From: Rhodoferax sp.
GTDB taxonomy: Bacteria > Pseudomonadota > Gammaproteobacteria > Burkholderiales > Burkholderiaceae_C
DNA: 40,003 nt
Direction: 5' to 3'
Assembly: GCA_016790475.1 (NCBI GenBank)
Contig: JAEUOX010000002.1
Span: forward strand, 1-40,003
Below are positions 280 to 20,416 of this stretch, piece by piece. The translations under genes were made by a program, and so were the position numbers. The stretch's first letter is position 1; every line of letters starts with the position of its first letter. Below the pieces are notes generated by a model. The model saw only the letters and a program-made list of their open reading frames with translations, did not search any database and was not told where the DNA came from.

Positions 280-1110
280 CTACCGATTCACGAGCAGCAG
301 CGCCGCCTCCCGCGCCGTCATGCCCACCCGCACACCGCAGTCCAGCGCCAGCCGGTTTGCCGCGCTGATGATGCCGTCGTTGTAGGTGCTCATGCCATCG
401 CCCATGCGCGCCAGGTGCGCGTCGACCGTTGCGCCGGCGATGCCTTCGGCCGCCGTGATCTCCAGCCCTGCCATGCCGGAATCGTTGCGCCCGCGGCCGC
501 CGTCGGAGCAGACGAAACCGAACGGCCGTACCGTGATGATGTGGCGCGCGCCGCTGCGCCCGGTGTGGCCGGCCGTGACCAGCACGTTGCGCTGGTCGGC
601 CTCGGTGCCGAAGACGATCGAGTCCGTCACGACGATCTGCCGGCCGCTGGCCGTCTCGTGCATCACGCGGCGGTTCGTCACCTGGTAGCCGCTGGGCGTG
701 CCGGGTTCATGTTCCAGCATCCTGCGCGCCGCCTCGTGGGCCGGCATGCCCACCTCGACGCCGCAGTCCTGCGCCGGGCGGTTGACGAAGCTGATGCGGC
801 CGTTATGGTAGGCGTCCACCCCGTCGCCCAGGATGATGCTCATCACGTCGACCGCCGCCGCCGGCACGTTCAGCGCTTCGAAGTACCACAGGCCGGCGAT
901 GTTCGCGCCCTGCGGCCCGACGCCGCCGTCGAAGCCGATCACCGCGCGCGGCAGGTGGTCGTGCACCAGCCGGGCCGGCAGCACGCCGATGTAGGAGGCC
1001 GTCACCAGCACATCACGCCCGCGGTTGCGCGGCAGGATGTCGGCGGCGCTATCCAGCGCCATCACGCTGCCGCGCTCGGTGCGGAGCATCTCGGTCTGCA
1101 GATCTTTCAT
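280..1110 (-). CDS. Protein of unknown function built from two tandem copies of one domain
   Basis: 276 aa, ATG start, with AGAGG about 8 nt upstream. I do not recognise a named family. The protein is an internal duplication. Residues about 12-132 align with 155-274, sharing a 'DVLVTA/NVLVTA' strand, a DGG-x-G loop, an AG-L helix, GDG-x3-Y-x2-G-x-IS-x2-NR and DCGV-x-VGM-x-A-x-EAA. No signal peptide or membrane segment is seen, so it is probably cytoplasmic. It is the last gene of the leftward operon, 36 nt after a P450 gene. From memory, single-domain proteins of about 130-150 aa with a similar 'GSHGG...GAGI...ARIGD...G.IS.VN' pattern exist and are uncharacterised. I cannot verify that link. 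A role in the pathway of the neighbouring P450s is inferred from position alone. Confidence 0.8.
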   Translation of the reverse strand: MKDLQTEMLRTERGSVMALDSAADILPRNRGRDVLVTASYIGVLPARLVHDHLPRAVIGFDGGVGPQGANIAGLWYFEALNVPAAAVDVMSIILGDGVDAYHNGRISFVNRPAQDCGVEVGMPAHEAARRMLEHEPGTPSGYQVTNRRVMHETASGRQIVVTDSIVFGTEADQRNVLVTAGHTGRSGARHIITVRPFGFVCSDGGRGRNDSGMAGLEITAAEGIAGATVDAHLARMGDGMSTYNDGIISAANRLALDCGVRVGMTAREAALLLVNR

Positions 1111-1146
1111 CGCGTTGCCTCTTGCAGGGGTGGCCCCGGCCGTGCA

Positions 1147-2349
1147 TCAGTGGTCAAACAGGATCGGGTAGGTGCCCCAGTTCGGCCGCTCGGTGTGGCT
1201 CGAGCGCGTGGGCGGGTTGGCCGGGTCGGGGCGGGCATTGCGGTCCAGCAGCGCCTTCACGAGCAGCGGCACGATGCCGTACTGGTGCGTGGCCGGGTCG
1301 GTGTCCGGCCGGGCCTGCATGCCGCCGTCCAGGTCGCGGCCCAGGCAGGTGTGCACGCCGGTGCCGAAGGTCAGGCCCCAGGGCGGGATGCCCTCGGGCA
1401 GCACGCGGTGCGGGTTGAAGACATCGGCATCCGGCCCGAACACGGTGGTGTCGCGGTTGGCCTGCGCCATCTCGACGACGACGCGGTCTGCCGGCGTGGC
1501 ATGGGCGCCGCCGGAGAGGGCCATCGGGCAGACCGGGCGGCGCTCCGCGACCGGGCTGGCCGGGTGCAGGCGCAGGCTCTCGTGCACGCAGCGCTGCAGG
1601 AACAGCGGATCGCTGCGGATGCGCCGGTCGTCCTCCGGGTGCTCCGCGCACCAGGTCACGACATCATGGAAGGCGTGCGTCGTGGCGTTCGCGGTGCTGT
1701 GCGAGCCGGCCTGCAGGTAGAACGCGATCTCGCGCATCATCAGGTCCGGCGAGATCTCGACCTTGTCCTCGTTGCGCAGCAGCACCGTCAGCACGTCGCG
1801 GGGCAGGGCGTCCTCGGTGATCTCGCCGGCCGCGAAGCGCGCCAGCAGGTCGCGCCGGCGCTGCATCGACGGACGGTAGAACGTGGCGTCGAACTCGGCC
1901 AGCGCGGCACGCACCTCGGCACGCACGACCTCCTTGTCGCGCGTCGAGTGCACCAGCGTGGCGCCCTCGCTGAAGGTCGCGGTCAGGCGGCGCAGTTGGG
2001 CGGTCTCGTCGGCGTCGCCCCGCGGGCGGTCCACGCCGGCAAAGTCCGCCGTCAGGTTCATCGTGATGCCGTAGCCCAGGTCGATCAGGTCGGCATGGCC
2101 GCGTTCCGCATGGGCGCCCATCGACTGCGCCAGCGTCGCCGGAAAGACCTCGTGCTCGTAGTAGCGGAAGAAGTCGCGCCGAAACACGCGCAGCTCCAGG
2201 CCGCGGCGGGCGCGGTGCGGTGCGCCGTGCAGCACCAGCAGCACGTCAGCCATGATGACCGCGCCTTCGTCGTACAGGGACTGCGACAGCTGCTTGTCGG
2301 CCAGGGTCTCCGACGCGGCGTGGTAGCCGGAAATCGCGTGAATCGTCAC
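1147..2349 (-). CDS. Cytochrome P450 (first of tandem pair; histidine at the I-helix acid position)
   Basis: 400 aa, GTG start with GAGG 7 nt upstream. It is a soluble bacterial P450 with no membrane anchor. The K-helix ExxR is ESLR (257-260), and the haem loop FGTGVHTCLG (328-337) places the cysteine ligand at 335. In the I-helix, where most P450s have (A/G)Gx(D/E)T, this protein reads AGSHST (214-219): the acid is His217 and the threonine position is Ser218. It is colinear without gaps, through the haem cysteine, with the P450 encoded just upstream (2367-3572), so the two arose by duplication. The C terminus 'ARPDPANP...NWGTYPILF' is of the soluble bacterial type. The substrate is unknown. 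No ferredoxin or reductase gene lies nearby. Confidence 0.93.
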   Translation of the reverse strand: MTIHAISGYHAASETLADKQLSQSLYDEGAVIMADVLLVLHGAPHRARRGLELRVFRRDFFRYYEHEVFPATLAQSMGAHAERGHADLIDLGYGITMNLTADFAGVDRPRGDADETAQLRRLTATFSEGATLVHSTRDKEVVRAEVRAALAEFDATFYRPSMQRRRDLLARFAAGEITEDALPRDVLTVLLRNEDKVEISPDLMMREIAFYLQAGSHSTANATTHAFHDVVTWCAEHPEDDRRIRSDPLFLQRCVHESLRLHPASPVAERRPVCPMALSGGAHATPADRVVVEMAQANRDTTVFGPDADVFNPHRVLPEGIPPWGLTFGTGVHTCLGRDLDGGMQARPDTDPATHQYGIVPLLVKALLDRNARPDPANPPTRSSHTERPNWGTYPILFDH

Positions 2350-2366
2350 GGTGGGGCCTCGCGCGC

Positions 2367-3572
2367 TCAGGCCTGCCCGAGCAGGATCGGGTAGGTGGAC
2401 CAGTTGTTGCGGATCGTTGAGCGGTCCACCACTCCGGGGTTGGCCGGGTCGGGGCGTGCGCCGTGCTGCATCAGCGCGCGGGCGATCAGCGACACCGTAC
2501 CCAGGTGGTGCTCTCGGGCGTCGGCGCCGCTGCGCGGCACCGATCCAGCCGCCAGCGTCAGCCCGAGGCAGGAATGCATGCCGATCCCGAAGGAGAGGCC
2601 GTAGGCGCTGGCGCCGCGCGGCGCGGGCCGGTGCGGGTTGTAGTCGGCGGCATCACTGCCGAAGATGCTGGTGTCCCGGTTGGCGGCCATCAGGTCGACG
2701 CTGATCAGGTCCTCCGGCGTCACGTCCTGCCCGCTGGGCAGATGCATGGGGCAGGTCGGGCGGCGGCCCGCGGTCGGGCTCGACGGGTGCAGGCGCATGC
2801 TTTCGTGGATCGCCTTCTGCAGGAACACCGGGTCCTGGGCGTAGCGGGGCGCGTCCTCCGGGTGGCTGGCGCTCCAGCTGAAGATGTCGTGCATCGCATG
2901 CGTCAGCGTGTGGATCGACGTGAATGCGCCGGCCAGCAGGAAGAAGCCGATCTCCTTCATCAGCACATCGTGGCTGATGGGCGTCTCGGCCTGCGCGCGC
3001 AGCAGCTCGACCAGCACGTCGCGGGGCAGCGCGTCCTCGGTGATCTCGCCGCGGGCCAGCTGGTCCAGCAGGGCCTGCCGGCGGGCCATCGAGGGGCGGA
3101 AGAAGTCTGCGTCGAACTCGTCCATCGCCTGCTGGATCTCGGCGCGGATCGCGGCCTTGTCGCCGAGCGCCTGACCCAGTGTGGCCGCCTTGCCGAAGGT
3201 GCGCAGGATGCGCAGCAGCGTGGCGGTCTCCTCCGGCGTGCGCCGTGGGCGGTCGACGCCGGAGAAGTCGGCCGTGAGGTTCATCATCACGCGAAAGCCG
3301 AAGTCCACCAGGTCGGTCTTGCCTGCGACCAGGTAGGGGGCCAGCGTCTCGCGCAGCGTCGTCGGGAAGACCTGCTTCTCGTACCACTCGAAGAAGTCGC
3401 GCCGGAACACCTTGATCTCGATGCCGCGCCGGGCCCGGTGCTCCTCGCCGTGCAGGTTGACCAGCACCTTCTCCATCAGGATGGCGCCTTCGTCGTACAG
3501 GGCCTGCCGCAGATCGGTCAGGCGCAGGGTTTCGTTCGCGTGCTTGTATTCGGAGACAACGATGGGGGGCAT
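2367..3572 (-). CDS. Cytochrome P450 (second of tandem pair; phenylalanine at the I-helix acid position)
   Basis: 401 aa, ATG start. ExxR is ESMR (257-260), and the haem loop FGIGMHSCLG (328-337) has Cys335 as ligand. The I-helix reads AGAFTS (214-219), so the usual Asp/Glu is Phe217, while the oxygen-activating threonine (Thr218) is kept. Every one of these positions carries the same number as in the neighbouring P450 (1147-2349), which shows a gap-free tandem duplication. The differing residues at 217-218 suggest that the copies have separated in chemistry or substrate. The gap to the next gene is 17 nt, so the pair is probably co-transcribed. The physiological electron donor is not encoded in the window. 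Confidence 0.93.
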   Translation of the reverse strand: MPPIVVSEYKHANETLRLTDLRQALYDEGAILMEKVLVNLHGEEHRARRGIEIKVFRRDFFEWYEKQVFPTTLRETLAPYLVAGKTDLVDFGFRVMMNLTADFSGVDRPRRTPEETATLLRILRTFGKAATLGQALGDKAAIRAEIQQAMDEFDADFFRPSMARRQALLDQLARGEITEDALPRDVLVELLRAQAETPISHDVLMKEIGFFLLAGAFTSIHTLTHAMHDIFSWSASHPEDAPRYAQDPVFLQKAIHESMRLHPSSPTAGRRPTCPMHLPSGQDVTPEDLISVDLMAANRDTSIFGSDAADYNPHRPAPRGASAYGLSFGIGMHSCLGLTLAAGSVPRSGADAREHHLGTVSLIARALMQHGARPDPANPGVVDRSTIRNNWSTYPILLGQA

Positions 3573-3609
3573 GGATCCTCCGGTGGGTAGACAGGTTGGA
3601 ACGCAGGGG

Positions 3610-4143
3610 CTAGCGCGCGGGGTCGACCTCGATCCGCAGCGTGCGCCGGTCCCACTGGGCGGCAGCGTCGGCGACGGTCCGGTAGAGGTTCTGGATGCCC
3701 TCGCCGGGCATGTAGACCTCCATCATATGGCCCAGCAGCGGGCGGGTGTCGATGAACGACGCGCCCCGGCCGGACGCGGTGCGGACCTCGCTGGCCACCG
3801 GATAGCCCAGCGCCGCGTAGTGGGCCAGCACCTGCTCGTAGTCGTCGGGGATCATCGCCACATGGTGGAAGCCCTCGGTGCCGCGCGGGAACATGTCGCG
3901 GAAGGCCGACGGCGAGTCGCAGTGCTGCTGCACCAGCTCGACCTGGATCGGGCCGGCCTGCACATACACCGCCGACATGTCGATCTGCGAGGGCTGGCCG
4001 CGGTAGCGCACATGCGGCATCACGATATGGCGGCGTACGAAGAACGGGCCGATGCCCCATAGCGCGTGCCAGCGCTCGATGGCCGCGTCGATGTCGTTGA
4101 CGACGTAGGCGTTCTGGATCAGGCGGTGCGGCAAGGCGGTCAT
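3610..4143 (-). CDS. Glyoxalase/VOC-superfamily protein
   Basis: 177 aa from the ATG at 4143. An 85-codon upstream extension in the same frame overlaps the preceding SDR gene and is not protein-like, so I reject it. The start 'MTALPHRLIQNAYVVNDIDA' is a typical beta-alpha-beta opening of the vicinal-oxygen-chelate fold ('QNAYVVNDIDAAIERWHALWGIGPF'-like). The second half has GFHHVAMI (around 97-104) and a late HMMEVYM motif, which matches the His/Glu metal-ligand pattern of the family. VOC proteins use a metal ion for isomerisation, epimerisation or extradiol cleavage, and the reaction here cannot be deduced. It lies 37 nt before the P450 pair and 19 nt after the SDR gene, in the leftward operon. 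Confidence 0.85.
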   Translation of the reverse strand: MTALPHRLIQNAYVVNDIDAAIERWHALWGIGPFFVRRHIVMPHVRYRGQPSQIDMSAVYVQAGPIQVELVQQHCDSPSAFRDMFPRGTEGFHHVAMIPDDYEQVLAHYAALGYPVASEVRTASGRGASFIDTRPLLGHMMEVYMPGEGIQNLYRTVADAAAQWDRRTLRIEVDPAR

Positions 4144-4162
4144 GGTGCGTCCCGGTTCGTCG

Positions 4163-4924
4163 TCAGAAGCTCGACACACCCAGGCCGAGGCCGCCATCGA
4201 CCTCCAGCGCGACGCCGGTGACCCATTCGGCCCGGACCAGGTACTCGATGCCCTCGGCGATCTCCATGACGCTGCCGATCCGTCCCAGCGCGTGGTCCTT
4301 GGCGATGCCGGCGTACCGGCTCTCGGCCTGGTCCGCGGTGAACACGCCGGCGCGCACGTTGATCTCGGTGTTGACGGCGCCGGGCACGATGCAGCCAACG
4401 CGGATCTTGCGCCGGCCCAGCTCGGCCGCCATGACCCGGGTCAGGCCCTCGATCGCGGCCTTGGTCGTCGCGTAGGGCGAGGCGCCGGGGAAGGCACGCC
4501 GGTTGTGCACCGAGCCGATGAAGATGATGGCACCCTGGGTCGGCTCCAGCAGCGGCACGGCCAGGCTGGACAGCATCATGCCGGAGATCACGTTGGTGTT
4601 GAAGGCTTCCTTCAGGAAGTCTTCGGTGTAGGAATCGACGGCCTGGCGGTACATGTTGGCCGCGTTGCTGACCAGCACGTCAAGCTTGCCGCCATGCTCC
4701 ACGGCGGCGGCCAGCATCGCCTGCCGGTCGGCCTGGACCGTGACGTCGCCGACCACGGCGCGGCAGGCCGGGCCGATCGATGCGGCGACCGCGTCGATCT
4801 TGTCACGGCGCCGGCCGGTGATCGTGACCCGGGCGCCGCGCTCGGCAAAGTAGCGGGCCGTGCCTTCGCCGATGCCGGAGCCGCCGCCCGTGATCAGCAC
4901 CGACATGTTCTTGATTTCGCGCAT
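4163..4924 (-). CDS. Short-chain dehydrogenase/reductase
   Basis: 253 aa, ATG start with GGAGG about 9 nt upstream. It is a classical SDR. The cofactor-binding glycine motif TGGGSGIGEG is near residues 12-21, 'NAA' is at 87-89, and the catalytic set is Ser138, Tyr151 and Lys155 (YATTK). The ending 'TGVALEVDGGLGLG' is typical of this family. It should catalyse NAD(P)-dependent oxidation of an alcohol, or the reverse reaction, for example on a product of the neighbouring P450s. The arginines after the second strand (GRRRDK) suggest, but do not prove, NADP(H). It lies after the transporter genes in the leftward operon, separated from the binding-protein gene by 135 nt of hairpin-rich sequence. 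Confidence 0.93.
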   Translation of the reverse strand: MREIKNMSVLITGGGSGIGEGTARYFAERGARVTITGRRRDKIDAVAASIGPACRAVVGDVTVQADRQAMLAAAVEHGGKLDVLVSNAANMYRQAVDSYTEDFLKEAFNTNVISGMMLSSLAVPLLEPTQGAIIFIGSVHNRRAFPGASPYATTKAAIEGLTRVMAAELGRRKIRVGCIVPGAVNTEINVRAGVFTADQAESRYAGIAKDHALGRIGSVMEIAEGIEYLVRAEWVTGVALEVDGGLGLGVSSF

Positions 4925-5059
4925 GGACGCTGTCCTCCAGGATGGGCTTGGGGGCAGCCGGCACCGCCGGGGGCCGGGCTGCGCGGGTGGGCCCGCAGCG
5001 CCGTGGCCGCGGGCCGGGCACGGCCGCCGCCAGGGCGGGCCGCACCGGGGGTCGAGGGC
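4925..5059 (-). other. Hairpin-rich intergenic stretch after the binding-protein gene
   Basis: 135 nt of very GC-rich sequence between the binding-protein stop and the SDR start, including GCGGG-TGGG-CCCGC and several CCGGG/CCCGG pairs. Such structures behind a binding-protein gene can stabilise the upstream mRNA or weaken read-through, which would keep the binding protein more abundant than the enzymes. No T-run follows, so I do not call it a terminator. Confidence 0.3.
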
Positions 5060-6193
5060 TTACTTGTCCTCGACGAACTTGCCGTCGGCGACCTTCATGA
5101 CCGCATAACCGAAGCTGGGGATGCGGGTGTTGGGGTCGGTGATGGACCAGGTGCCGCGGCCGATGACCACCGGCAGGTTCTTGGTGGCCAGCATGGCCTC
5201 GCGGACCTTCTCGCGCGTCGGGTTCGGGCCGGCGGACTTGATCGCGTTGGCCGCGATCAGCGCCATCGAATAGCCCACCATGGCCCAGGAGTCGGGCTGC
5301 ACCTTGTAGCGCGCGTTGTAGTTCACGATGAACTTCTTGGCCATGTCGTTGACGCCGGTGGGCACCGACTCGGCCGAGAACAGCGTGCCGTTGACCGCGC
5401 TGCCACCGGCCTTGATGTAGTTGGCCGAGCCCATGCCGGTGTTGCCCACCAGCAGCGTGTTGGCCGCCATGCCGGCCTGGCGCGCCTGCAGGATGATGTT
5501 GGCGCCTTGCTCCGGCGGCGTGGACAGGAACAGGCAGTCGGCCTTGGAGCCGGCGATCTTGGTGCCCAGCGCCGTGAAGTCGGTGTCCGCCGAGAGGATC
5601 GACTCCTCGGCCGCGATGCCCACGCCGCCCTTCTTGATCGTGTCGCGGAAGGCGTTGTGCTGGAAGATGTAGCCCTCGTTGTCGCGGATCGTGATCGTGA
5701 AGCAGGACTTGGGCTTCTTCTGCGCCACATGCTCGCCCAGCAGCGTCATGTACTGGTCGGCCGTCTCGGTGACCTTGAAGATCCAGGGGCCGGGCTTGAG
5801 CACCGCCGGCGACGTGGCGGTGGTGAAGAGCGGCAGCTTCAGGTCGTTGGCCACGGGGCCTGCGGCCATCGCCTCGCCGGTGGCCACCGGGCCGATGACC
5901 ATCACCGCGTTGTCGCGCGTGGCCATGCGGGTGATCAGCGAGATCGCCTCCTGGGTGTTGGAGCGGTTGTCCTCCACCATCAGCGAGACCTTGGTCGCGC
6001 CGAAGTAGTTGGCCGCCTGCAGTTCGTCAAAGGCCATGCGGATGGCATTGATCACCGGCGTGCCGACAAAGGCGTAGGTGCCGGTGTTGGACATCACCAC
6101 GCCCAGCTTGACCTCCTGGGCCTGGGCGCCGGACACACCGGCCAGCAGTGCCAGGCCGGTGGCGGCCAGGGCGGGAATCATGCGCTTCTTCAT
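5060..6193 (-). CDS. Periplasmic substrate-binding protein of a branched-chain amino acid-type ABC transporter
   Basis: 377 aa from the ATG at 6193, which has AGGAGAC upstream. A 15-codon extension to 6238 has no comparable site. The N terminus KKRMIPALAATGLALLAG...AQA is a Sec signal peptide, probably cut before QEVKLG. The mature part has the type I periplasmic fold seen in LivJ/LivK-like and amide- or aromatic-acid-binding proteins ('KLGVVMSNTGTYAFVG', 'MVIGPVATGEAMA'). It partners LivHMGF encoded directly upstream. In many loci the binding protein comes first; here it follows livF by 58 nt. Members of this family bind aromatic acids, amides and other small molecules as well as amino acids, so the ligand is most simply the substrate of the surrounding pathway. 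Confidence 0.92.
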   Translation of the reverse strand: MKKRMIPALAATGLALLAGVSGAQAQEVKLGVVMSNTGTYAFVGTPVINAIRMAFDELQAANYFGATKVSLMVEDNRSNTQEAISLITRMATRDNAVMVIGPVATGEAMAAGPVANDLKLPLFTTATSPAVLKPGPWIFKVTETADQYMTLLGEHVAQKKPKSCFTITIRDNEGYIFQHNAFRDTIKKGGVGIAAEESILSADTDFTALGTKIAGSKADCLFLSTPPEQGANIILQARQAGMAANTLLVGNTGMGSANYIKAGGSAVNGTLFSAESVPTGVNDMAKKFIVNYNARYKVQPDSWAMVGYSMALIAANAIKSAGPNPTREKVREAMLATKNLPVVIGRGTWSITDPNTRIPSFGYAVMKVADGKFVEDK

Positions 6194-6251
6194 ACGGGTC
6201 TCCTGTAATGATGATGGACGGACAACGGGAACGGACAATCAAAAAAGATGC

Positions 6252-6968
6252 TCACTCGGCAGCAGCCCCCTGACCGAGGTAATGGGCCTCGATCTCCGGG
6301 TCGTTGGCAAGCTCCTGGCTCGGGCCGCTATGCACGATGCGGCCCTGCTCGATCACATAGGCGCGGCCGGTCACCTCCAGCGCCTGCTTGGCGTTCTGCT
6401 CGATCAGCAGGATCGTGAGCCCCTCCTGGTTGAGCTGGCGCAGCGTCGCAAACACCTGCTTGACGACCAGCGGCGCCAGCCCCAGGCTGGGCTCGTCAAG
6501 CAGCAGCAGGCGCGGCGCCCCCATCAGCGCGCGCCCGATCGCCAGCATCTGCTGCTGCCCGCCGGACAGCGAGCCGGCCAGCTGCGCACGCCGCTCGCCC
6601 AGGATCGGGAAGAGCTCGATCACCCGCGACAGCGGGTACACCGCCGGGCGCCCGCGCAGCGCCGTGGCGCCCAGCTGCAGGTTCTCCAGCACCGTCATCT
6701 CGGCAAACACCTGGCGCCCCTCGGGCACCTGCAGCAGCCCGCTGCGCGAGACACTCCAGGAGTTCTGGCCGATCACCTCGATGCCGTCGAGCTTGATGGA
6801 GCCGCCCGCGGGCTGGATCTGCCCGCTCACGCAGTTCAGCAAGGTGGACTTGCCCGCGCCGTTGGGGCCGATGAGCGCCACCATCTCGCCCTGGCGCACC
6901 GACAGGCTCACCCCGCGCAGTGCCTGGATGCCGCTGTAGTTGGCTTGGAGGTCGGTGATTTCCAGCAT
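6252..6968 (-). CDS. ABC transporter ATP-binding protein, LivF type
   Basis: 238 aa starting at MLEITDLQANY (ATG 6968); an 18-codon in-frame extension overlaps livG and is rejected. It has a Walker A GPNGAGKST near residue 38, the signature LSGGQQQML, a Walker B LLLLDEPSLGLAP and a switch histidine region LIEQNAKQAL. The short length and the ending 'IEAHYLG' are typical of LivF, one of the two ATPases of the branched-chain amino acid/amide importer. It lies directly after livG, with a 13-nt gap. Confidence 0.95.
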   Translation of the reverse strand: MLEITDLQANYSGIQALRGVSLSVRQGEMVALIGPNGAGKSTLLNCVSGQIQPAGGSIKLDGIEVIGQNSWSVSRSGLLQVPEGRQVFAEMTVLENLQLGATALRGRPAVYPLSRVIELFPILGERRAQLAGSLSGGQQQMLAIGRALMGAPRLLLLDEPSLGLAPLVVKQVFATLRQLNQEGLTILLIEQNAKQALEVTGRAYVIEQGRIVHSGPSQELANDPEIEAHYLGQGAAAE

Positions 6969-6981
6969 CGTGCTTCTGCGC

Positions 6982-7737
6982 TCAGGCGCCCAGGTAGGCG
7001 GCCACCACGGCCGGGTCGGCAATGACCTTCTTCGGCGGGCCCTCGGCGATCAGCCGCCCGCCGTCGAGCACATAGACATGCTCGCAAAGCCGGGTCACGA
7101 AGCGCATGTTGTGCTCGATCAGCAGCACCGCCATGCCGTCGGCCGCCAGGCCCTTGAAGATCGCGCCGAGCTCGTTGGCCTCCACGTCGTTCATGCCCGC
7201 CACCGGCTCGTCGAGCAGCAGCACGCGCGGCTTGGAGGCCAGCGCGCGCATGAACTCGACGCGGCGCTGGTGCCCGTAGGCCAGGCCGCCGGCGGGGAAG
7301 GCGGCGTAGCGCGTCATGTTGAAGCGCTCCAGCAGCTGCGCGGCCTCGGCGCGGATGCGCCGGGTCTCGGCGCGCGCCGAGGGCAGCGCCAGGATGCTGG
7401 CCAGCAGCGAGCAGGTCTCGTGCCGGTGGAAGCCCCCCATCACGTTGTCGAGGGCCGGCGCCTCCTTGAAGAGCCGGATGTTCTGGAAGGTGCGCGCCAG
7501 CCCGGCGCGGCTGATCTCGTGCGGCGAGGTGGTCGTGATGTCGCGATCGCCCAGCCGGATCTGCCCCCCGCTGAGCTCCATCATGCCGGTGATCAGGTTC
7601 ACGATGGTCGACTTGCCCGCGCCGTTGGGGCCGATCAGCCCGGTGATGCGCCCCGGCGGGATCTGCATCGAGACGTTCTCGGCGGCCACCACGCCGCCAA
7701 AGCGCTTGGAGACCTTGTCCAGCACCAGCGTGCTCAT
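6982..7737 (-). CDS. ABC transporter ATP-binding protein, LivG type
   Basis: 251 aa from the ATG at 7737, which overlaps the livM stop by 4 nt (ATGA), so translation is probably coupled. Walker A is GPNGAGKST near residue 38. Walker B is LLLDEPVAGMN, where most LivG proteins have AGLN. The signature region GHQRRVEFMRAL replaces the more common GxQRRLEIARAL, and the switch region is LLIEHNM. The C terminus 'IADPAVVAAYLGA' is the usual LivG ending. It works as a heterodimer with LivF to power import through LivH and LivM. Confidence 0.95.
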   Translation of the reverse strand: MSTLVLDKVSKRFGGVVAAENVSMQIPPGRITGLIGPNGAGKSTIVNLITGMMELSGGQIRLGDRDITTTSPHEISRAGLARTFQNIRLFKEAPALDNVMGGFHRHETCSLLASILALPSARAETRRIRAEAAQLLERFNMTRYAAFPAGGLAYGHQRRVEFMRALASKPRVLLLDEPVAGMNDVEANELGAIFKGLAADGMAVLLIEHNMRFVTRLCEHVYVLDGGRLIAEGPPKKVIADPAVVAAYLGA

Positions 7738-11245: not shown

Positions 11246-11246
11246 C

Positions 11247-11258: not shown

Positions 11259-11329
11259 TTAATTGAGATTGCTGCATCGGCGCTGGCACACCGGCGACAC
11301 CGGGCGCAGCCCGCCAAGGAGACCTTTCC

Positions 11330-12340: not shown

Positions 12341-12373
12341 CCATTTGGCGTCCACCTGCCCGGGAGGCCTTGC

Positions 12374-13744: not shown

Positions 13745-13762
13745 TACCCCAGGAGACACCCG

Positions 13763-14332
13763 ATGACCGATCTTGAAAGCCTGACCCGCCGGGTCGAGCA
13801 GCTCGAAGCACGCTTTGCGATTTCTGAACTCGTCAGCGGCTATGCGATCGCCTGCGACGAGCACGACATCGAGCGGCTGGGCACGCAGTTCACCGAGGAC
13901 GCGGTGCTGGATTCGCCGAGCAAGCTGCTGTCGGCCAACGGGCGCGCCGAGATCCTCGCGATGTATGTGCGGCTGTTCAAGATCCGCGGCCCAGGCTACC
14001 ACTGGACGCACGACCATTTCGTGAACTTCCATCCGACCGATCCGGACCGCGCGACCGGGCTGGTGCTGAGCCATGCGGAAACCTGCCCCGACAACGAGGT
14101 CAGCGTCTCCGGCATGCGCTACGACGACGAGTACCAGCGTGTCGGCGGGCGCTGGATGTTCCGCAAGCGCACGCTGAAGTTCCTCTACTACGTGCCCGCC
14201 AAGGACTACACCCAGGCCCTGACCGGCAAGACCCGCGTGACGATGGGCGGACGCCAGCTGCCCGGCGACTTCCCGGAGTCCACGCCGGCCTGGCAGGCCT
14301 TCGACCGGACCTACGGCCGCAACGGCGCCTGA
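13763..14332 (+). CDS. SnoaL-like (NTF2-fold) protein
   Basis: 189 aa, start ATG with CAGGAGA upstream. It begins with a heptad-like helix 'SLTRRVEQLEARFAISELVS', then 'YAIACDEHDIERLGTQFTED', and has the pocket motif YHWTHDHFV (around 73-81), typical of SnoaL_4-type proteins. The cone-shaped NTF2 fold serves in isomerases, cyclases, dehydratases and also as the beta subunit of many Rieske dioxygenases. The gene sits 31 nt before the Rieske oxygenase gene, so a partner role is conceivable, but the sequence looks like a SnoaL enzyme rather than a standard beta subunit. The ending 'STPAWQAFDRTYGRNGA' shows no signal. Confidence 0.82.
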   Translation: MTDLESLTRRVEQLEARFAISELVSGYAIACDEHDIERLGTQFTEDAVLDSPSKLLSANGRAEILAMYVRLFKIRGPGYHWTHDHFVNFHPTDPDRATGLVLSHAETCPDNEVSVSGMRYDDEYQRVGGRWMFRKRTLKFLYYVPAKDYTQALTGKTRVTMGGRQLPGDFPESTPAWQAFDRTYGRNGA

Positions 14333-14363
14333 GGCGCAGCCCGACAAGGAAGGGACCCCTGCG

Positions 14364-15539
14364 ATGCAGCACACCACCGATTCCCCCGCGCTGGCCCACC
14401 GCGCACTGGCCCATCTGCGCAACAAGACCACCGACCAGGCCCCCTCGACGATGGTGCAGCCGGTCGGCGCGTACAGCGATCCGGAGCGTTTCCGCCGTGA
14501 GGTGGACCGCATCTTCCGCCACCTGCCACTGGGCCTGGCGCTGAGCATCGAGCTGCCGGAGCCCGGCAGCTACCGCGCGATGACGGTGATGGACAAGCCG
14601 GTCCTGATGGTGCGCGGCCAGGATGGCGTCGTACGGGCCTTCCTGAATGCCTGCACGCACCGCGGCGCGCAGATCTGCCAGCCCGGCAGCGGGCGCGTGC
14701 AGCGCCTGGTGTGCCCCTACCATGCCTGGCGCTTCGACCTGCAGGGTCAGCTGACCGGCCTGTTCGGTGCGGACACCTTCGGCGAGGTCAGCCCGTCGAC
14801 CCATTCGCTGGTCGAACTGCACTGTGTCGAACGCGTCGGCGTCGTGTGGGTGCAGCTGACGCCGGGCGAGGCGCTGGATGTCGATGCCTGGCTGGGCGGT
14901 TTTGCCGGCCCGCTGGGGGGCTTGAAGCTGCAGGACTGGCACCTCTACGCGCAGCGCGAGATCCCCGGCCCGGGCTGGAAGGCGACCTGGGACGGCTACC
15001 TGGAGTCCTACCACCACAACACCGTGCACCCGAACACGGTCGGCAAGTTCACGATCGGCAACCTGATCCTGCACGACAGCTTCGGCCCGCACCAGCGGCT
15101 GGTGTTCGGCCGCAAGTCGCTGGCCGAACTGGAAAGCGTGCCGGAGGCCCAATGGGACAGCGTTGCGGAATCCCACATGCGCCGCATCCACCTGTGCTTC
15201 CCGAACCTGGCGATCTCCGGCATCCTGGGTGACCATTGCCTGGTCAGCCAGGTGTTCCCTGGCCCGACCCCGGAGACGACGATCACGCGCCAGACGGTGC
15301 TGTCTGCGCGCGAGCCGGTCACGGACGAGCAGAAGGCCGCGACCGCCGCGTTCTCCGACATCGCGCTGCGGGCGGTGCGCGACGAGGATTACGCGATCGG
15401 CTTCGCGATTCAGGAGAACCTGCGGGCCGGTGCACTGCAGGCCTTCACGTTCGGGCGCAACGAACCCGGCGTGCAGCACTTCCACAAGACCGTCGACATC
15501 GTGATGCGCACGCCGGTGGGGCAGCTGCCGGACTGCTGA
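14364..15539 (+). CDS. Rieske non-haem iron oxygenase, alpha subunit
   Basis: 391 aa. The Rieske [2Fe-2S] ligands are Cys97-x-His99 and, 17 residues later, Cys117-x2-His120 (CTH...CPYH). The mononuclear iron site is Glu214-x2-His217-x4-His222 in GYLESYHHNTVH. The residue that links the two centres across subunits is therefore Glu rather than the usual Asp, as in carnitine/quaternary-amine oxygenases of the CntA kind. The protein hydroxylates or dealkylates an unknown substrate with O2 and NAD(P)H through an external reductase, and none is encoded nearby. It follows the SnoaL gene and precedes the MarR gene. Confidence 0.93.
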   Translation: MQHTTDSPALAHRALAHLRNKTTDQAPSTMVQPVGAYSDPERFRREVDRIFRHLPLGLALSIELPEPGSYRAMTVMDKPVLMVRGQDGVVRAFLNACTHRGAQICQPGSGRVQRLVCPYHAWRFDLQGQLTGLFGADTFGEVSPSTHSLVELHCVERVGVVWVQLTPGEALDVDAWLGGFAGPLGGLKLQDWHLYAQREIPGPGWKATWDGYLESYHHNTVHPNTVGKFTIGNLILHDSFGPHQRLVFGRKSLAELESVPEAQWDSVAESHMRRIHLCFPNLAISGILGDHCLVSQVFPGPTPETTITRQTVLSAREPVTDEQKAATAAFSDIALRAVRDEDYAIGFAIQENLRAGALQAFTFGRNEPGVQHFHKTVDIVMRTPVGQLPDC

Positions 15540-15547
15540 GCCGGGCG

Positions 15548-15575
15548 GGCGCCGAGCGACTCTAGAATCGGCGCC
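15548..15575. promoter_or_regulatory. Inverted repeat over a likely -10 element just before marR
   Basis: GGCGCCGA (15548-15555) and TCGGCGCC (15568-15575) form a perfect 8-bp inverted repeat with a 12-nt centre. TAGAAT (15563-15568), a good -10 hexamer, begins in that centre and ends on the first base of the right arm. The ATG of the MarR gene follows at 15579 with no Shine-Dalgarno sequence, so the transcript would be nearly leaderless. The layout fits an autoregulated promoter inside the operon. A weak -35 and the chance of GC-rich palindromes are reasons for caution. Confidence 0.45.
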
Positions 15576-15578
15576 ACG

Positions 15579-16157
15579 ATGGCCACCAAGACCAGCCCAC
15601 CGAGCGAACCCACCGAAGACCTCACCGCCAGCGTGCTGGCCATGGAGGACCGGCTGACCTTCCTGGTCCACACGGTCGGCGCGCGCATCGCCAGCGTGGG
15701 CAACCGGCATTTCCGGGCCCATGACCTGAACCATTTCTCGGCCCGCATCCTGGTGCTGCTGCTGCAGCACGAGGAGCTGCGCGCCGGCGAGCTCGTCGAG
15801 CTGATGGTGCTGCCGCAGAGCACGATCTCCAGCCAGCTGCAGGCGCTGCATGCCAAGCGGCTGATCCGCCGCCGCCGCTCGCGCAAGGACAACCGCTCGG
15901 TGATCCTGACGCTGACGCCGGAGGGCCTGGATCTGGCCCGCGACTGCGATGGCCTGAGCCTGCGGGTGCACCATGCCTTGCTGGACGACATCGGCGAGCG
16001 CGAACGCCGCGCCGGCATCGAGTTCCTGCGCAAGGTGAACCAGCGGCTGCGCGCGATGGAGCAGCAGGAGCTCTACCCGTTTCGCGCGCCGGCGCGCCTG
16101 CCGGACCCCGGTGCCATCGAGGCGCCGCCCCCACGGACCAAAGGAAAGAAGCCATGA
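15579..16157 (+). CDS. MarR-family transcriptional regulator
   Basis: 192 aa. The winged-helix core lies at about residues 45-115, with the recognition helix in 'LPQSTISSQLQALHAKRLI' and the wing in RRRRSRKDNRSVILTLTPEG. Long helices before and after would form the dimer interface. The C-terminal 30 residues are proline-rich and basic (ending RTKGKKP). MarR proteins often sense the aromatic or acyl-CoA substrate of a neighbouring pathway. It is the only regulator inside the locus and probably controls the divergent region near 11250 and its own promoter. Its stop overlaps the next start by 4 nt. Confidence 0.92.
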   Translation: MATKTSPPSEPTEDLTASVLAMEDRLTFLVHTVGARIASVGNRHFRAHDLNHFSARILVLLLQHEELRAGELVELMVLPQSTISSQLQALHAKRLIRRRRSRKDNRSVILTLTPEGLDLARDCDGLSLRVHHALLDDIGERERRAGIEFLRKVNQRLRAMEQQELYPFRAPARLPDPGAIEAPPPRTKGKKP

Positions 16158-16456
16158 TCAAGCACATCGTGATGTGGAAGTTCAAGGAGACCGCCCACGG
16201 GCAGGATCTCGCGACCAACGCGCGGCAGACGCGCGACCGCCTGGAGTCGCTGCGCGGCCAGATCCCGGGCCTGCTGCACATCGAGGTCGGGCTGGACTTT
16301 TCGGCCACCCCGAACAGCGCCCATGTCGTGCTGTATTCCGAATTCGAGAGCCGCGAGGCGCTGGCGGTCTACCAGGCGCACCCGCTGCACCAGGCGATCG
16401 TGCCCTTCGTCGTCGAAGCCGCCACCGAGCGCCGGCTGGTCGACTACGAGCTCTGA
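16154..16456 (+). CDS. Dabb (stress-responsive A/B-barrel) domain protein
   Basis: 100 aa, coupled to marR by an ATGA overlap. The sequence opens IKHIVMWKFKE and has 'GLLHIEVGLDF', 'SAHVVLYSEFESREALAVYQ' and 'HPLHQAIVPFV', the standard strands of the dimeric ferredoxin-like Dabb fold. Known members include plant stress proteins, olivetolic acid cyclase and bacterial proteins of unknown function beside catabolic genes. A catalytic role, such as an aldol-type or cyclising step, or binding of a reactive intermediate, is possible. Nothing in the sequence decides between these. Confidence 0.87.
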   Translation: MIKHIVMWKFKETAHGQDLATNARQTRDRLESLRGQIPGLLHIEVGLDFSATPNSAHVVLYSEFESREALAVYQAHPLHQAIVPFVVEAATERRLVDYEL

Positions 16457-16539
16457 GCCCGCCGCCGCGCCCCGGCGTGCCCCACAGGCGCCCGCCGGCC
16501 TGCGGAGCGCTCCCTTTCCCCGCCTGAACCGGAATCCGC

Positions 16540-17688
16540 ATGCAGACATCGCTTCACCCGCTCGCGGGCGTCCAGGTCATCGAGTTCTGCCATGTGGCAG
16601 CCGGCCCCTACTGCGGCATGCTGCTGGCCGACTTCGGGGCCACCGTCACGAAGATCGAGTCGCCCGACGGTGACGCGATGCGCCAGTGGCCGCCGCTGAC
16701 CGACGGCTTCAGCGAGAACTTCGCGTCGGTCAACCGCGGCAAGCGCTCGGTGGTGCTGGACCTGAAGGATCCGGCCCAGCGCGACATCGCCCGCGATCTG
16801 GTGCTGCAGGCCGACGTGCTGGTCGAGAACAACCGCCCCGGTGCGATGCAGCGGCTCGGCCTGGGCTGGGACTGGTTCGGGCCGCGCAAGCCTTCGCTGG
16901 TGTACTGCGCGATCTCCGCCTATGGCCAGGACGGCCCACGCGGCGGGGAGGGCGGCTTCGACCTGACGATCCAGGCCAGTGCCGGCGTCATGAGCGTGAC
17001 CGGCGAGCCGGACGGCGCGCCGGTCAAGGCCGGCGTGCCGCTGGTGGATTTCGCGGCCGGCCTTTACGCGGCCTACAGCATCGCCGCGATGCTGAACCGG
17101 GTCCGCCAGGGCGGGCCGGGCGGCCAGCTCGACATACCGATGTTCGCGACAACGATCGCGGTGTCGGCGCTGCAGACCAGCGAGTACTTTGGCACGGGCC
17201 GCAATCCGCGCAAGCTGGGTTCGGCGCATCCGCGCAACGCACCCTACCAGGCCTACCGGGCGGCGGACGGCTGGTTCGCGGTGGCGGCCGGCAACAACAA
17301 GCTGTGGCAGCAGGTCTGCCGGCTGACACCGGCGCCCGAATTGCTGGACAACGCGCGCTTCGCGACGCCCACGCTGCGCGCGGCCAACCAGGACGCCCTG
17401 CGCGTGTTGCTGGAGGCCCGCTTCGTGCAGCAGGGCGTCGGCCACTGGCTGGATCTGTTCGGTCCGGCCGGCGTGCCCTGTGCGCCGATCAACGGTTATT
17501 CCGAGGCGCTGGCCGACCCGCAGGCCGCCCACCTGCAGCTGGTGCAGCCGATGACGCTGCCCAACGGCCGGCAGACCCGCACCGTGGCCTGCCCGGTGCG
17601 CATCGACGGGCAGGTGGTGCCGGTGGACACCCGCCCGCCGGCGCTCGGCGAACATACCCGGGACGTCCTCGCCGCGCGAGGCCGCTGA
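16540..17688 (+). CDS. Class III CoA-transferase (CaiB/BaiF family)
   Basis: 382 aa. The opening 'LAGVQVIEFCHVAAGPYCGM' and 'LLADFGATVTKIESPDGD' are family hallmarks. The catalytic aspartate that forms the acyl anhydride is predicted at Asp170 (GVPLVDFAAG). It should transfer CoA between acyl-CoA and a carboxylate intermediate of the pathway. An 83-nt gap separates it from the Dabb gene, and 24 nt from the aminotransferase. Family members accept carnitine, formate, oxalate, aromatic acids, or sulfur acids such as 3-sulfinopropionate. The last is of interest because of the thiol-dioxygenase-like gene at 19101. Confidence 0.93.
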   Translation: MQTSLHPLAGVQVIEFCHVAAGPYCGMLLADFGATVTKIESPDGDAMRQWPPLTDGFSENFASVNRGKRSVVLDLKDPAQRDIARDLVLQADVLVENNRPGAMQRLGLGWDWFGPRKPSLVYCAISAYGQDGPRGGEGGFDLTIQASAGVMSVTGEPDGAPVKAGVPLVDFAAGLYAAYSIAAMLNRVRQGGPGGQLDIPMFATTIAVSALQTSEYFGTGRNPRKLGSAHPRNAPYQAYRAADGWFAVAAGNNKLWQQVCRLTPAPELLDNARFATPTLRAANQDALRVLLEARFVQQGVGHWLDLFGPAGVPCAPINGYSEALADPQAAHLQLVQPMTLPNGRQTRTVACPVRIDGQVVPVDTRPPALGEHTRDVLAARGR

Positions 17689-17712
17689 ATCCCGCCCCTT
17701 CCGGAGGACCCC

Positions 17713-19104
17713 ATGCAGCGTACCCATGCACTCAACGTGGCCCAGGACGTCGAATCCCTGTTCCACCCGTACACACCGCTGGACAAGGTCCGCGAGACCG
17801 GCCCGCTGGTGATGACCCGCGGCGACGGCATCTATGTCGAGGACGACCAGGGCCGGCGCTACCTGGAGGCCGTGTCCGGCCTGTGGTGCACCTCGCTGGG
17901 CTTCTCCGAGCAGCGCCTGATGGACGCCGCGCAGCAGCAGTTCCGCCAGCTGCCCTACTACCAGCTGTTCGGCGGGCGCGCCAACGAGCCGTCGATCGCG
18001 CTGTCACATGCGCTCATCGAGAAGACGCGGCACCTGGGCATGGCGATGGCGATGTTCGCCAACTCCGGCTCGGAGGCCAACGACCAGGCGGTGAAGATGG
18101 TCTGGTACTACTTCAACGCGATCGGCAAGCCGCACAAGAAGAAGCTGATCGCCCGCGAGCGGGCCTACCACGGCGTCACGGTGATGGCCGCCAGCCTGAC
18201 CGGCCTGGCCGGCAACCATGCGGATTTCGACCTGCCGATCGGCGACCGGGTGCTGCGCACCGCCTCGCCCAGCTACTACCACTACGGCCGCCCGGGTGAG
18301 ACCGAGGCGCAGTTCGTCGACCGCATCGTGGGCGAGCTGGAGGCACTGATCCTGCGGGAAGGCGCGGACACCATCGCCGCCTTCTTCGCGGAGCCGGTGC
18401 AGGGCGCCGGCGGTGTGATCGTCCCGGCGGCCGGCTACTGGGAGAAGGTCCAGGCGCTGCTGCGCCGGCACGACATCCTGCTGGTGGCCGACGAGGTGAT
18501 CACCGGCTTCGGGCGCACCGGCGAATGGTTCGGCTGCGATACCTACGGCATCCAGCCCGACCTGATGACGGTGGCCAAGGCGCTGTCAAGCTCCTACCTG
18601 CCGATCTCGGCCACACTCGTCAGTGCGCGGGTGTACGAGGGGCTGACGCAGGGCAGCCGCCGCAACGGGCAGTTTGCGCACGGCGTCACCTACGCCGGGC
18701 ATCCGGTCTGCGCGGCGGTGGCCCTGGAGACGCTGCGCATCTACGAGGAGCGCGACATCGTGGGCCATGTGCGCCGGGTCGCGCCCCATTTCCAGCGCCG
18801 GCTGCGCGGCATGGAGCAGCACCCGATGGTGCATGCGAGCCGCGGCGTGGGCCTGATCGGCGCGATCGAGCTGGTGCAGGACAAGGCCACCGGCCGGACC
18901 TTCGAGGCCGGCAGCCCGATCCTGGCCCGCGTCGTGAGCGCCGGCTTCGAGGTCGGGTTGATCTGCCGCGCGCTTCGCGACACGCTGGCGGTCTCGCCGC
19001 CGCTGATCATCACCGAGCCGCAGATCGACGAGCTGTTCGACAAGATGGGGCAGTCGCTGGACCTGGCGCTGGCGGACGCCCGTGCCGCGGGGCTGATGCC
19101 ATGA
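17713..19104 (+). CDS. Class III (omega-type) aminotransferase
   Basis: 463 aa, ATG with CCGGAGGA upstream. It is a PLP-dependent fold-type I enzyme. The phosphate-binding segment is 'ANSGSEANDQAVKMVWYY' (116-133), the cofactor aspartate is in LLVADEVITGFGRTG (Asp260), and the Schiff-base lysine is Lys289 in TVAKALSSSYLP. The sequence resembles beta-alanine/taurine/putrescine-type transaminases that use pyruvate as acceptor. It would convert a terminal or secondary amine to an aldehyde or ketone. The stop overlaps the start of the cupin gene by 4 nt, a strong sign that the two enzymes act together. Confidence 0.93.
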   Translation: MQRTHALNVAQDVESLFHPYTPLDKVRETGPLVMTRGDGIYVEDDQGRRYLEAVSGLWCTSLGFSEQRLMDAAQQQFRQLPYYQLFGGRANEPSIALSHALIEKTRHLGMAMAMFANSGSEANDQAVKMVWYYFNAIGKPHKKKLIARERAYHGVTVMAASLTGLAGNHADFDLPIGDRVLRTASPSYYHYGRPGETEAQFVDRIVGELEALILREGADTIAAFFAEPVQGAGGVIVPAAGYWEKVQALLRRHDILLVADEVITGFGRTGEWFGCDTYGIQPDLMTVAKALSSSYLPISATLVSARVYEGLTQGSRRNGQFAHGVTYAGHPVCAAVALETLRIYEERDIVGHVRRVAPHFQRRLRGMEQHPMVHASRGVGLIGAIELVQDKATGRTFEAGSPILARVVSAGFEVGLICRALRDTLAVSPPLIITEPQIDELFDKMGQSLDLALADARAAGLMP

Positions 19105-19715
19105 CGACCGACACCATCGCCCCGCTGCGCAGCTTCGTCACGGCGATGACGGCGCTGGTCGACCAGGTCCGGGACGAAGCCCCGCTGCTGGCGCAGGGCC
19201 GGGGCCTGCTGGCACAGTTGCTGGCCGACGACGGCTGGCTGCCGGAAGCCTTCGCGCAGCCGCGTGCGGACCGCTACGCACAGTACCTGCTGCATTGCGA
19301 CCCGCAGGAGCGCTTCTCGGTCGTCAGCTTCGTCTGGGGCCCGGGCCAGGCGACGCCGGTGCACAACCATACCGTCTGGGGCCTGGTGGGTGTGCTGCGT
19401 GGCGCGGAGGCCTGCGAGGAGTTCGCGCTGCAGGGGGCGCATCCGGTACCCGCGGGGCGGCAGCATGTGATGCAGCAGGGCGCGATCGAGGCGGTGTCGC
19501 CCACCGTGGGCGACTGGCACCGTGTGCGCCATGCCTGGGATGCCCGTCCGGCGGTCAGCATCCATGTCTATGGCGCGAACATCGGCGCCGTGCGCCGGCA
19601 CCGGCTGGACGCCGAGGGCCGCCTGCTGGATTTCGTGTCCGGCTACGACAACACCGTCGTGCCCAACCTGTGGGACCGCTCGGCGATCGCACGCACGCCG
19701 GTGCAGGCATGCTGA
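19101..19715 (+). CDS. Thiol dioxygenase-like cupin (cysteine/3-mercaptopropionate dioxygenase family)
   Basis: 204 aa from the ATG at 19101. A longer in-frame reading from 18525 runs through the aminotransferase and is a shadow. The cupin iron ligands are His88 and His90 (PVHNHTVWG) and His140 (GDWHRV). The second-shell triad of bacterial thiol dioxygenases is present as Ser153-His155-Tyr157 (SIHVYG). The VWGLVGVLRG context follows the bacterial 3-mercaptopropionate dioxygenase-like branch, which lacks the Cys-Tyr crosslink of mammalian enzymes. The expected reaction is oxidation of a thiol to a sulfinate with O2. The true substrate is unknown. It overlaps both neighbours, so it is translationally coupled. 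Confidence 0.85.
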   Translation: MTTDTIAPLRSFVTAMTALVDQVRDEAPLLAQGRGLLAQLLADDGWLPEAFAQPRADRYAQYLLHCDPQERFSVVSFVWGPGQATPVHNHTVWGLVGVLRGAEACEEFALQGAHPVPAGRQHVMQQGAIEAVSPTVGDWHRVRHAWDARPAVSIHVYGANIGAVRRHRLDAEGRLLDFVSGYDNTVVPNLWDRSAIARTPVQAC

Positions 19716-20416
19716 AGACGCAGCGCGCCGACGGCGTGCAGACCCTGCTGCTGGACCGGCCGGAGCTCGGCAACGCGCTCGGGCCCGCTCTCGTGGAGGC
19801 GCTGATCGACGCGGTGGATGCGGCCTGTGGCGACGCCGAGCTGCATACGCTGGTGCTGCGCAGCACCGGGCGGCACTTCTGCACCGGGCTGGATCTGGTC
19901 GAGCTGCCGCAACTGTCCGATGGGGACCTGCTGCTGCGGCTCGTGCGCATCGAGACCTTGCTGGCGCGCCTGTGGCATGCCCCGCTGCGCACCGTCGCGC
20001 TGGCGCGGGGACGCACCTGGGGCGCCGGAGCCGACCTGTTCGCCGCCTGCGACCTGCGCGTTGCGGCGCCCGACACGCTGCTGCGCTTTCCCGGCGCGCA
20101 ATTCGGTGTGGTCCTGGGTACCCGGCGCCTGGCCGAGCGCATCGGCGCGGATGCGGCGCGCCGGCTGGTCATCGAAGGGGGCGAGCTGTCGGCGCCGCAG
20201 GCGCTGGCGGCCGGCCTGGCCAGCAGCGTCGGCGAGGACGCGGAAATGACGCCACCGCAGGTCGACCGCGCCACCGCGGCCGCGATCCGTGCCGCCACGC
20301 GGCCGGATCTGCGCGACGCCGATCTGGCGGCCCTGGTGCGCTCGGCGTCCCGGCCGGGCCTGCAGGGACGCATCCAGGCCTACCGCGATCGCCTGCGCGC
20401 GGCGCGCCCCGGCTGA
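19709..20416 (+). CDS. Enoyl-CoA hydratase/isomerase-family protein with altered active site
   Basis: 235 aa from the ATG at 19709, overlapping the cupin stop by 7 nt. The crotonase fold is clear: RPELGNALGPALVEAL, an oxyanion-hole segment STGRHFCTGLDL (52-63) and GRTWGAGADLFAACDLRVA. The two catalytic glutamates of hydratases are not found at their usual places: GGGCEL is GAGADL (Asp109), and FPEVxLG is FPGAQFG (Gly129). It may be an isomerase, hydrolase, decarboxylase or desulfinase-like variant, or a non-catalytic relative. It is shorter than the usual 255-260 aa. It is the last gene of the rightward operon. Confidence 0.85.
   Translation: MLKTQRADGVQTLLLDRPELGNALGPALVEALIDAVDAACGDAELHTLVLRSTGRHFCTGLDLVELPQLSDGDLLLRLVRIETLLARLWHAPLRTVALARGRTWGAGADLFAACDLRVAAPDTLLRFPGAQFGVVLGTRRLAERIGADAARRLVIEGGELSAPQALAAGLASSVGEDAEMTPPQVDRATAAAIRAATRPDLRDADLAALVRSASRPGLQGRIQAYRDRLRAARPG

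Follow-up and report, generated by a model that had tools for sequence, protein, structure and literature searches.

Two described systems come closest to the locus reported here. In the first, the enzymes Mdo, Act and AcdA convert 3-mercaptopropionate to propionyl-CoA and sulfite, and their genes are clustered with enoyl-CoA hydratase genes (PMC6370202, in the part available to us). In the second, the lumichrome (riboflavin) operon of Nocardioides simplex, a hypothetical operon of 25 genes, a nitrogen heterocycle is oxidised and hydrolysed (PMC12746152, likewise in the part available). Here we describe a divergent locus of 22 genes at positions 280-20416 of the window, that is, the whole 40,003-nucleotide (nt) stretch of DNA that was analysed. 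The window is the entire contig C382 of a Burkholderiales metagenome-assembled genome (MAG; G000, 4.77 Mb, 89.8% complete), and genes to the left of position 280 are out of view. We think it rather probable that two catabolic modules are joined in this one divergent locus, and that the larger of them, the core, forms a pathway of patchy distribution that serves a single substrate or a narrow group of substrates. The core, which consists of paired P450s, two short-chain dehydrogenases/reductases (SDR1 and SDR2), a ThuA-like protein and two amidohydrolases (AH1 and AH2), recurs jointly across the Alpha- and Gammaproteobacteria and the Actinomycetota. A literature search gave no description of this gene set among the matches listed, which bears out the statement in a preliminary description of the locus that no described pathway has this set.

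The 22 genes are open frames with a coding signal or family matches, and they form two divergent runs, one of 12 genes on the minus strand (280-11152) and one of 10 genes on the plus strand (11330-20416), separated by a gap of 177 nt. Gene calls, family scans and positions confirm the divergent locus of about 22 genes proposed in the preliminary description. The overlaps of 1-7 nt that it mentioned are also present, at 6 of the 20 within-run junctions: LivG/LivM (4 nt), LivM/LivH (1 nt) and ThuA/SDR2 (4 nt) in the minus run, and MarR/Dabb (4 nt), aminotransferase/cupin (4 nt) and cupin/crotonase (7 nt, with the crotonase ATG at 19709) in the plus run. The starts chosen for the VOC protein, LivF and LivK are internal to longer open frames. 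In the following, L-numbers denote compared genomic regions and G-numbers denote genomes. The features of the locus are:

280-1110, minus strand: 276-amino-acid (aa) protein with two 43%-identical halves, accessory (matches in same-genus genomes and Rhodococcus plasmids)
1147-2349, minus strand: P450b, Q-type (QAGSHST), core (family match, motifs, model fold)
2367-3572, minus strand: P450a, L-type (LLAGAFTS), core, 52% identical to P450b (family match, motifs)
3610-4143, minus strand: VOC (Glyoxalase_4) protein (family match; kept in two same-genus relatives)
4163-4924, minus strand: SDR1, core (family match, recurrence with the core)
5060-6193, minus strand: LivK-type binding protein (family match; 55% identical relative in L085)
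6252-6968, minus strand: LivF ATPase (family match)
6982-7737, minus strand: LivG ATPase (family match)
7734-8642, minus strand: LivM permease (family match)
8642-9535, minus strand: LivH permease (family match)
9621-10388, minus strand: ThuA-like protein, core (Pfam match; model matches ThuA-like and GATase-1 folds)
10385-11152, minus strand: SDR2, core (family match, recurrence with the core)
11217-11266, plus strand: promoter-like block, TTGACT-17-TACATT and then CAACGAAATCGTTTTAATTGA (a short inverted repeat), pointing to AH2 (conserved in three genomes)
11330-12340, plus strand: AH2, Amidohydro_2 (ACMSD-like), core (family match, recurrence)
12374-13744, plus strand: AH1, Amidohydro_1 (Xaa-Pro dipeptidase/ochratoxinase-like), core (family match, recurrence)
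13763-14332, plus strand: SnoaL_4 protein (family match; 56% identical in L119, in the same order)
14364-15539, plus strand: Rieske oxygenase alpha subunit, E-x2-H-x4-H, GbcA/CntA-like (family match, motif)
15579-16157, plus strand: MarR regulator (family match; relatives near the core in other proteobacterial regions)
16154-16456, plus strand: Dabb alpha/beta-barrel protein (family match)
16540-17688, plus strand: class III CoA-transferase, second module (family match)
17713-19104, plus strand: class III omega-aminotransferase, second module (family match)
19101-19715, plus strand: 3-mercaptopropionate-dioxygenase-family cupin, second module (PDB sequence matches)
19709-20416, plus strand: crotonase, second module (family match)

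A scan with two peptide patterns gave a starting set of 18 loci holding relatives of the P450s, in Acetobacteraceae, Steroidobacter, an alphaproteobacterium, Pseudonocardia, Actinomycetospora, Acidimicrobiales/Acidimicrobiia and an unclassified bacterium; further relatives, in Novosphingobium sp. THN1 and Streptantibioticus, came from a search of plasmids. The panel compared by tblastn comprised 29 regions, 28 of them P450-bearing, with one contig counted twice (L013 is contained in L099) and an Azospirillum region without a P450 (L061). SDR2 was counted at 45% identity or more and SDR1 at 50% or more, and alignments covering less than half of the query were dropped in the region comparisons. 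Two core P450s are present in 21 of the 28 P450-bearing regions, SDR2 in 19, AH1 in 16, AH2 in 14, and ThuA and SDR1 in 11 each, and a ferredoxin relative was found in 17; many panel regions are short, ending within 10-20 kb, or reach the end of a contig, and absences are therefore soft. The layout nearest to that of the window is seen in L085, the locus of the alphaproteobacterial genome G956, where P450a-AH1-AH2 faces MarR-P450b-SDR2-ThuA-SDR1-LivHMGFK. AH2-AH1-SnoaL-Rieske stand in window order, at 56-63% identity, in the alphaproteobacterial region L119. Three other proteobacterial regions have relatives of the MarR regulator (37-40%) close to the core, and MarR and Dabb relatives adjoin each other in Steroidobacter too; the MarR relative of L085 had no Pfam match.

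The association was also seen within one genus. Among 60 Pseudonocardia genomes, 16 gave P450b matches at E 1e-80, 15 of these twice, and 14 gave AH2 matches at E 1e-70. All 14 AH2-positive genomes are P450-positive, and therefore the core links both operons; none of the 44 P450-negative genomes carries AH2 (Fisher p 6.9e-12, not corrected for relatedness). In Novosphingobium sp. THN1 the core set lies on a plasmid typed as conjugative, and a word search of the available text of its genome paper found neither "P450" nor "amidohydrolase". Scans for the P450 in draws from the family, the order and the phylum were positive for 1 of 200, 1 of 399 and 1 of 398 genomes, respectively, each time the genome of the window itself; the draws overlap with one another and failed to find two carriers of the same genus, so that they understate the occurrence of the P450.

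The preliminary description treated both runs as a single system. This holds for the left run plus the start of the right run (AH2 and AH1), by the cross-phylum recurrence and the co-occurrence in Pseudonocardia, but not for all 22 genes as one set. The CoA-transferase, aminotransferase, cupin and crotonase had no match in any of the 29 regions (tblastn, E 1e-10), and they stand apart from the P450s in same-genus genomes. The same-genus comparison uses MAG contigs, for which mis-binning is possible. The P450 is present in 3 of 7 genus genomes (G000, G1358 and G1359). In G1359, the 276-aa protein-P450b-P450a-VOC-SDR1 follow in window order, and in G1358, AH2 faces ThuA-SDR1-VOC-P450a-P450b; the VOC protein, kept in both, had no match in the 29-region panel at the same threshold. 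In G1360 and G082, genomes without the P450, the CoA-transferase, cupin and crotonase genes are grouped together, and in G1358 the aminotransferase, CoA-transferase, crotonase and cupin are on a different contig from its P450s. This separation suggests that two modules meet in the right run.

As judged from its gene families, the CoA-transferase/aminotransferase/cupin/crotonase end is thus a second, separable module of a sulfur-compound type. By sequence, the cupin is firmly placed in the 3-mercaptopropionate-dioxygenase family (PDB entries 4qma, 6xb9, 3uss/4tlf and 4wvz; E 1.7e-70 to 3.3e-63). The best NCBIfam match of the CoA-transferase is succinate-glutarate CoA-transferase, at 291 bits of 750, in a comparison that did not contain Act itself. 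If all 22 genes formed one pathway for an organosulfur, nitrogen-containing compound, the P450s and the Rieske enzyme would cleave C-N or C-S bonds, the amidohydrolases would open an amide, the aminotransferase and CoA-transferase would process the chain, and the cupin would oxidise the freed thiol. G1357 speaks for such a pathway. Its orthologous, decayed locus gave no P450 match and holds SDR2 and the CoA-transferase as fragments, and it still keeps AH2 (81% identical to the window), MarR (73%), aminotransferase (83%), cupin (75%) and crotonase (71%) together, followed by the hemerythrin-like gene of the window. In L120 (which stops within SDR2), L121, L122 and Azospirillum L061, variant clusters retain AH2, SDR2 and ThuA in stretches that gave no P450 match, and three of them (L121, L122 and L061) carry TauD genes and a different, thiol-dioxygenase-like cupin of 186-188 aa. 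These three cupins have no Pfam match; the best PDB match of that in L121 is mercaptosuccinate dioxygenase (E 2.3e-7). LLM and TauD families, some of whose members act on sulfur compounds, also recur in related clusters. Nevertheless, the lack of any panel match for the four second-module genes, and their occurrence without these P450s or on another contig, make a single pathway of 22 genes doubtful.

To place the P450s, we compared 59 distinct sequences; before the tree was made, we dropped alignments of fewer than 330 columns and any row that duplicated another or lay wholly within it. The superfamily consensus has an acid residue in the acid-alcohol pair of the I-helix, although this is not universal. 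The acid is lacking in the core P450s, where the position is His in 48 of 51 rows, Phe in 2 (including P450a of the window) and Gln in 1; in the outgroup it is Gln in 8 of 8. The canonical continuation after the heme cysteine is in none of the 59 rows (one row does not have that part), and the Pfam P450 stretches, like most PDB stretches among the matches listed, end just past the heme cysteine. Other features of the superfamily are present: ExxR, the FxxGxHxCxG heme loop and, in the model of P450b (predicted local distance difference test score, pLDDT, 89), the P450 fold, with P450BioI, CalO2 and CypX near the top of the fold matches. These P450s form a distinct family, mostly paired, in which the I-helix acid position is usually occupied by His. 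Among the proteobacterial sequences, P450a and P450b are sister clades, and five loci (the window, L007, L008, L010 and L025) contain a member of each. Q-type and L-type as two ancient clades were rejected by approximately unbiased (AU) tests (p 0.008 for all Q-type and 0.004 for all L-type). Two further observations concern individual genes. The P450b match of THN1 is split over two frames (L025 21161-22398), by a frameshift or a sequencing error, and contig C515 of the window's own genome has a third, distant P450 (32-34%) beside a BKACE (beta-keto acid cleavage) gene (L006 301-1578 and 1478-2485).

The affinities of the P450s raise the question of whether the locus is a biosynthetic or tailoring cluster, with P450s related to cyclodipeptide oxidases, instead of a catabolic one. 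The best NCBIfam match of both is TIGR04538, the cyclodipeptide-associated P450, and the fold of P450b points to its member CYP134A1/CypX. In addition, a 43-45% identical relative on a Streptantibioticus megaplasmid lies between two genes with nonribosomal peptide synthetase (NRPS) condensation and adenylation domains (L026 6557-20059). However, the matches to TIGR04538 reach only 43 and 57 bits against a cut-off of 500, the panel tblastn found no other core gene near the Streptantibioticus P450, and the family matches of the 22 genes included no polyketide synthase, NRPS or cyclodipeptide synthase. The Liv importer, MarR regulator and hydrolases fit uptake and breakdown, and we regard biosynthesis as very unlikely.

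The amidohydrolases bear on the chemistry of the core. Relatives of AH1 include Xaa-Pro dipeptidase, ochratoxinase and phenylurea hydrolase, that is, amide and urea hydrolases, and AH2 resembles ACMSD. Residues H67, H69, K189, H230 and H250 of AH1 (22 rows) and H15, H17, H182, H237 and D310 of AH2 (26 rows) are 95% or more conserved, and presumably fit metal hydrolases. We found 12 AH2-bearing places outside the window; one is the L085 locus, only some of the other 11 hold other core genes, and L117, L118 and L124 have few or none. A Rhodococcus BX2 relative of AH1 (38%) lies in a cluster with other aromatic-type genes, and small (1.4-Mb), AT-rich genomes, whose marine origin is a guess, have AH2-AH1 pairs near Rieske, SnoaL_4 and ABM genes (L123, L126 and L127). 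ThuA had no PDB match by phmmer; it matches PF06283 in Pfam, and its model (pLDDT 88) matches ThuA-like (4e5v, TM 0.71) and GATase-1 folds.

The genes that accompany the core in its relatives leave room for a steroid- or terpenoid-like alicyclic substrate, in which case SDRs, FAD_binding_2, OYE, SnoaL and Rieske proteins would degrade a ring ketone, and AH1 and AH2 would hydrolyse lactone or diketone intermediates. FAD_binding_2 genes occur in 16 of the 29 regions, LLM genes in 16, OYE genes in 4 and an RPE65-family gene in one, and all of these would also fit an alicyclic substrate. The loci in small AT-rich genomes, where AH2-AH1 is paired with Rieske, SnoaL_4, ABM or FAD_binding_2 genes, agree with this. 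On the other hand, the accompanying oxidoreductases vary by lineage, and scans of the window named no steroid or terpenoid marker family; we hold such a substrate to be unlikely.

Returning to the reading of two joined catabolic modules, the core set, carried by soil and water bacteria that are only distantly related, probably takes up and degrades one small molecule. The Liv ABC importer would bring a small polar molecule in, and the two related P450s and the SDRs, here also with the Rieske enzyme, would hydroxylate and oxidise it. AH1 may then cut a C-N bond (amide or ring), and AH2 may decarboxylate or hydrolyse the resulting acid. The second module would oxidise a thiol-carboxylate to a sulfinate and activate it with CoA; it may take a fragment of the core substrate. 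The MarR regulator may act at the block at 11217-11266, switching AH2 and perhaps both directions. This block is conserved in G1358 (L151) and G1357 (L161), thus in three genus genomes with the window. Its promoter-like site is the sole one in 11100-11400 when both strands are scanned (mean 0.2 in shuffles), and the right part of the block is present nowhere else in the window. The same scan found no promoter for the left run, so that shared control of both operons is what we infer.

That the substrate contains nitrogen or sulfur is likewise what we infer. Our tentative guess is an amide or lactam derived from amino acids (of the cyclic dipeptide type) or else a nitrogen heterocycle, and the compound may also contain sulfur. 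We propose a C-N bond because of the AH1 relatives, the CypX fold match, the P450 in an NRPS cluster and a gene for the large subunit of a molybdenum hydroxylase, which lies close to the P450s in 8 of 29 regions (seven of Pseudonocardia, and THN1); we propose sulfur because of the cupin family and the mercaptosuccinate-dioxygenase-like second cupin in three variant clusters. It is possible, with some doubt, that an aerobic pathway common to Pseudomonadota and Actinomycetota uses the P450 pair, with its I-helix His and non-canonical post-cysteine stretch, on an amide derived from amino acids, with release of a thiol-carboxylate for the thiol-dioxygenase module.

Several observations weigh against the joining of two such modules around a fixed core pathway. 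ThuA, SDR1, AH1 and AH2 are absent from many panel regions, only part of which are cut short, and the full Liv importer was matched in L085 only. The variant clusters without a P450 match suggest that the P450s are not always needed; the AU rejection of single Q-type and L-type clades may mean that the pairing arose twice or that genes were converted; and the Streptantibioticus P450 amid NRPS genes suggests that the family is not tied to catabolism. Moreover, the AH1 and AH2 families catalyse many reactions. The 22 genes, beyond which no search of the genome was made, include neither a ferredoxin or reductase gene that we could see for the P450s and Rieske enzyme nor an AcdA-type acyl-CoA-dehydrogenase desulfinase. 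Finally, the gene order of the second module varies among relatives, and in G186 the cupin is the only match on its contig, with no match to the CoA-transferase or crotonase.

The 276-aa protein, which the preliminary description had put forward as a marker of the system, does not serve as one. It adjoins the P450s in G1359 (85%), but other clusters contain it as well, in G1358 and on Rhodococcus plasmids, and it had no match in the 29-region panel (tblastn, E 1e-10). There was no PDB sequence match, and DUF1805 was below the cut-off; a Pfam match to IMS (26.4 bits, cut-off 23.2) was set aside as spurious without a test. G1358 has the gene in two copies, accompanied by another P450, an alpha/beta hydrolase, two TauD genes and Liv genes (L145 4489-11701). 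The relatives on Rhodococcus plasmids (L149 and L150) adjoin OB-fold, AMP-binding and thiolase genes, and others are on haloarchaeal plasmids. Elsewhere in the window, FGGY-kinase and xylose-isomerase-like genes lie end to end (xylulokinase and isomerase by eye) and are followed by an M20 peptidase gene (25944-30000). An AcrB-family RND pump gene, two putative partner genes (by eye) and a CusS-type sensor kinase gene, mostly of lower GC, occupy 31951-39963.

The core set is real and linked, and its interest lies in its spread and in its P450 family. A linked set kept across two phyla and on a conjugative-type plasmid implies an environmental compound with an undescribed breakdown route. Named carriers, namely Pseudonocardia dioxanivorans CB1190, Actinomycetospora and Novosphingobium sp. 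THN1, make the question testable, and a mostly paired P450 family with an unusual I-helix motif makes direct biochemical study possible.

How, then, does the locus compare with known systems? CYP134A1/CypX is the best NCBIfam match of both P450s (TIGR04538) and, by fold, ranks with the best matches of P450b, whereas the window-type P450s differ in their scores (43-57 bits against 500), in the usual His at the I-helix acid position and in the sequence after the heme cysteine. The Azospirillum brasilense p3 cluster (L061) has AH2 (56% identical), SDR2 (54%) and ThuA (46%) in common with the window, but differs in its TauD genes, in another ABC importer and in having no P450 match in the stretch. 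The lumichrome operon likewise combines a P450, amidases and a Rieske oxygenase. Its LumU P450, however, is a single-subunit fusion, its own features include a thiamin-dependent decarboxylase, a xanthine oxidase and an extradiol dioxygenase, and no ThuA, P450 pair or CoA step is seen in the available part of its report (PMC12746152). Family scans found no extradiol dioxygenase, thiamin-dependent decarboxylase or xanthine oxidase among the 22 genes, and the operon is analogous in kind but not in its gene content. The second module comes closest to mdo-act-acdA-ech of Variovorax paradoxus TBEA6, for 3-mercaptopropionate and 3,3'-thiodipropionate, so far as the available part of the source goes (PMC6370202). 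Both bring together a 3-mercaptopropionate-dioxygenase-family cupin, a class III CoA-transferase and crotonase-type genes, whereas the window, without AcdA among its 22 genes, has an omega-aminotransferase in between and is fused to the P450/amidohydrolase core.

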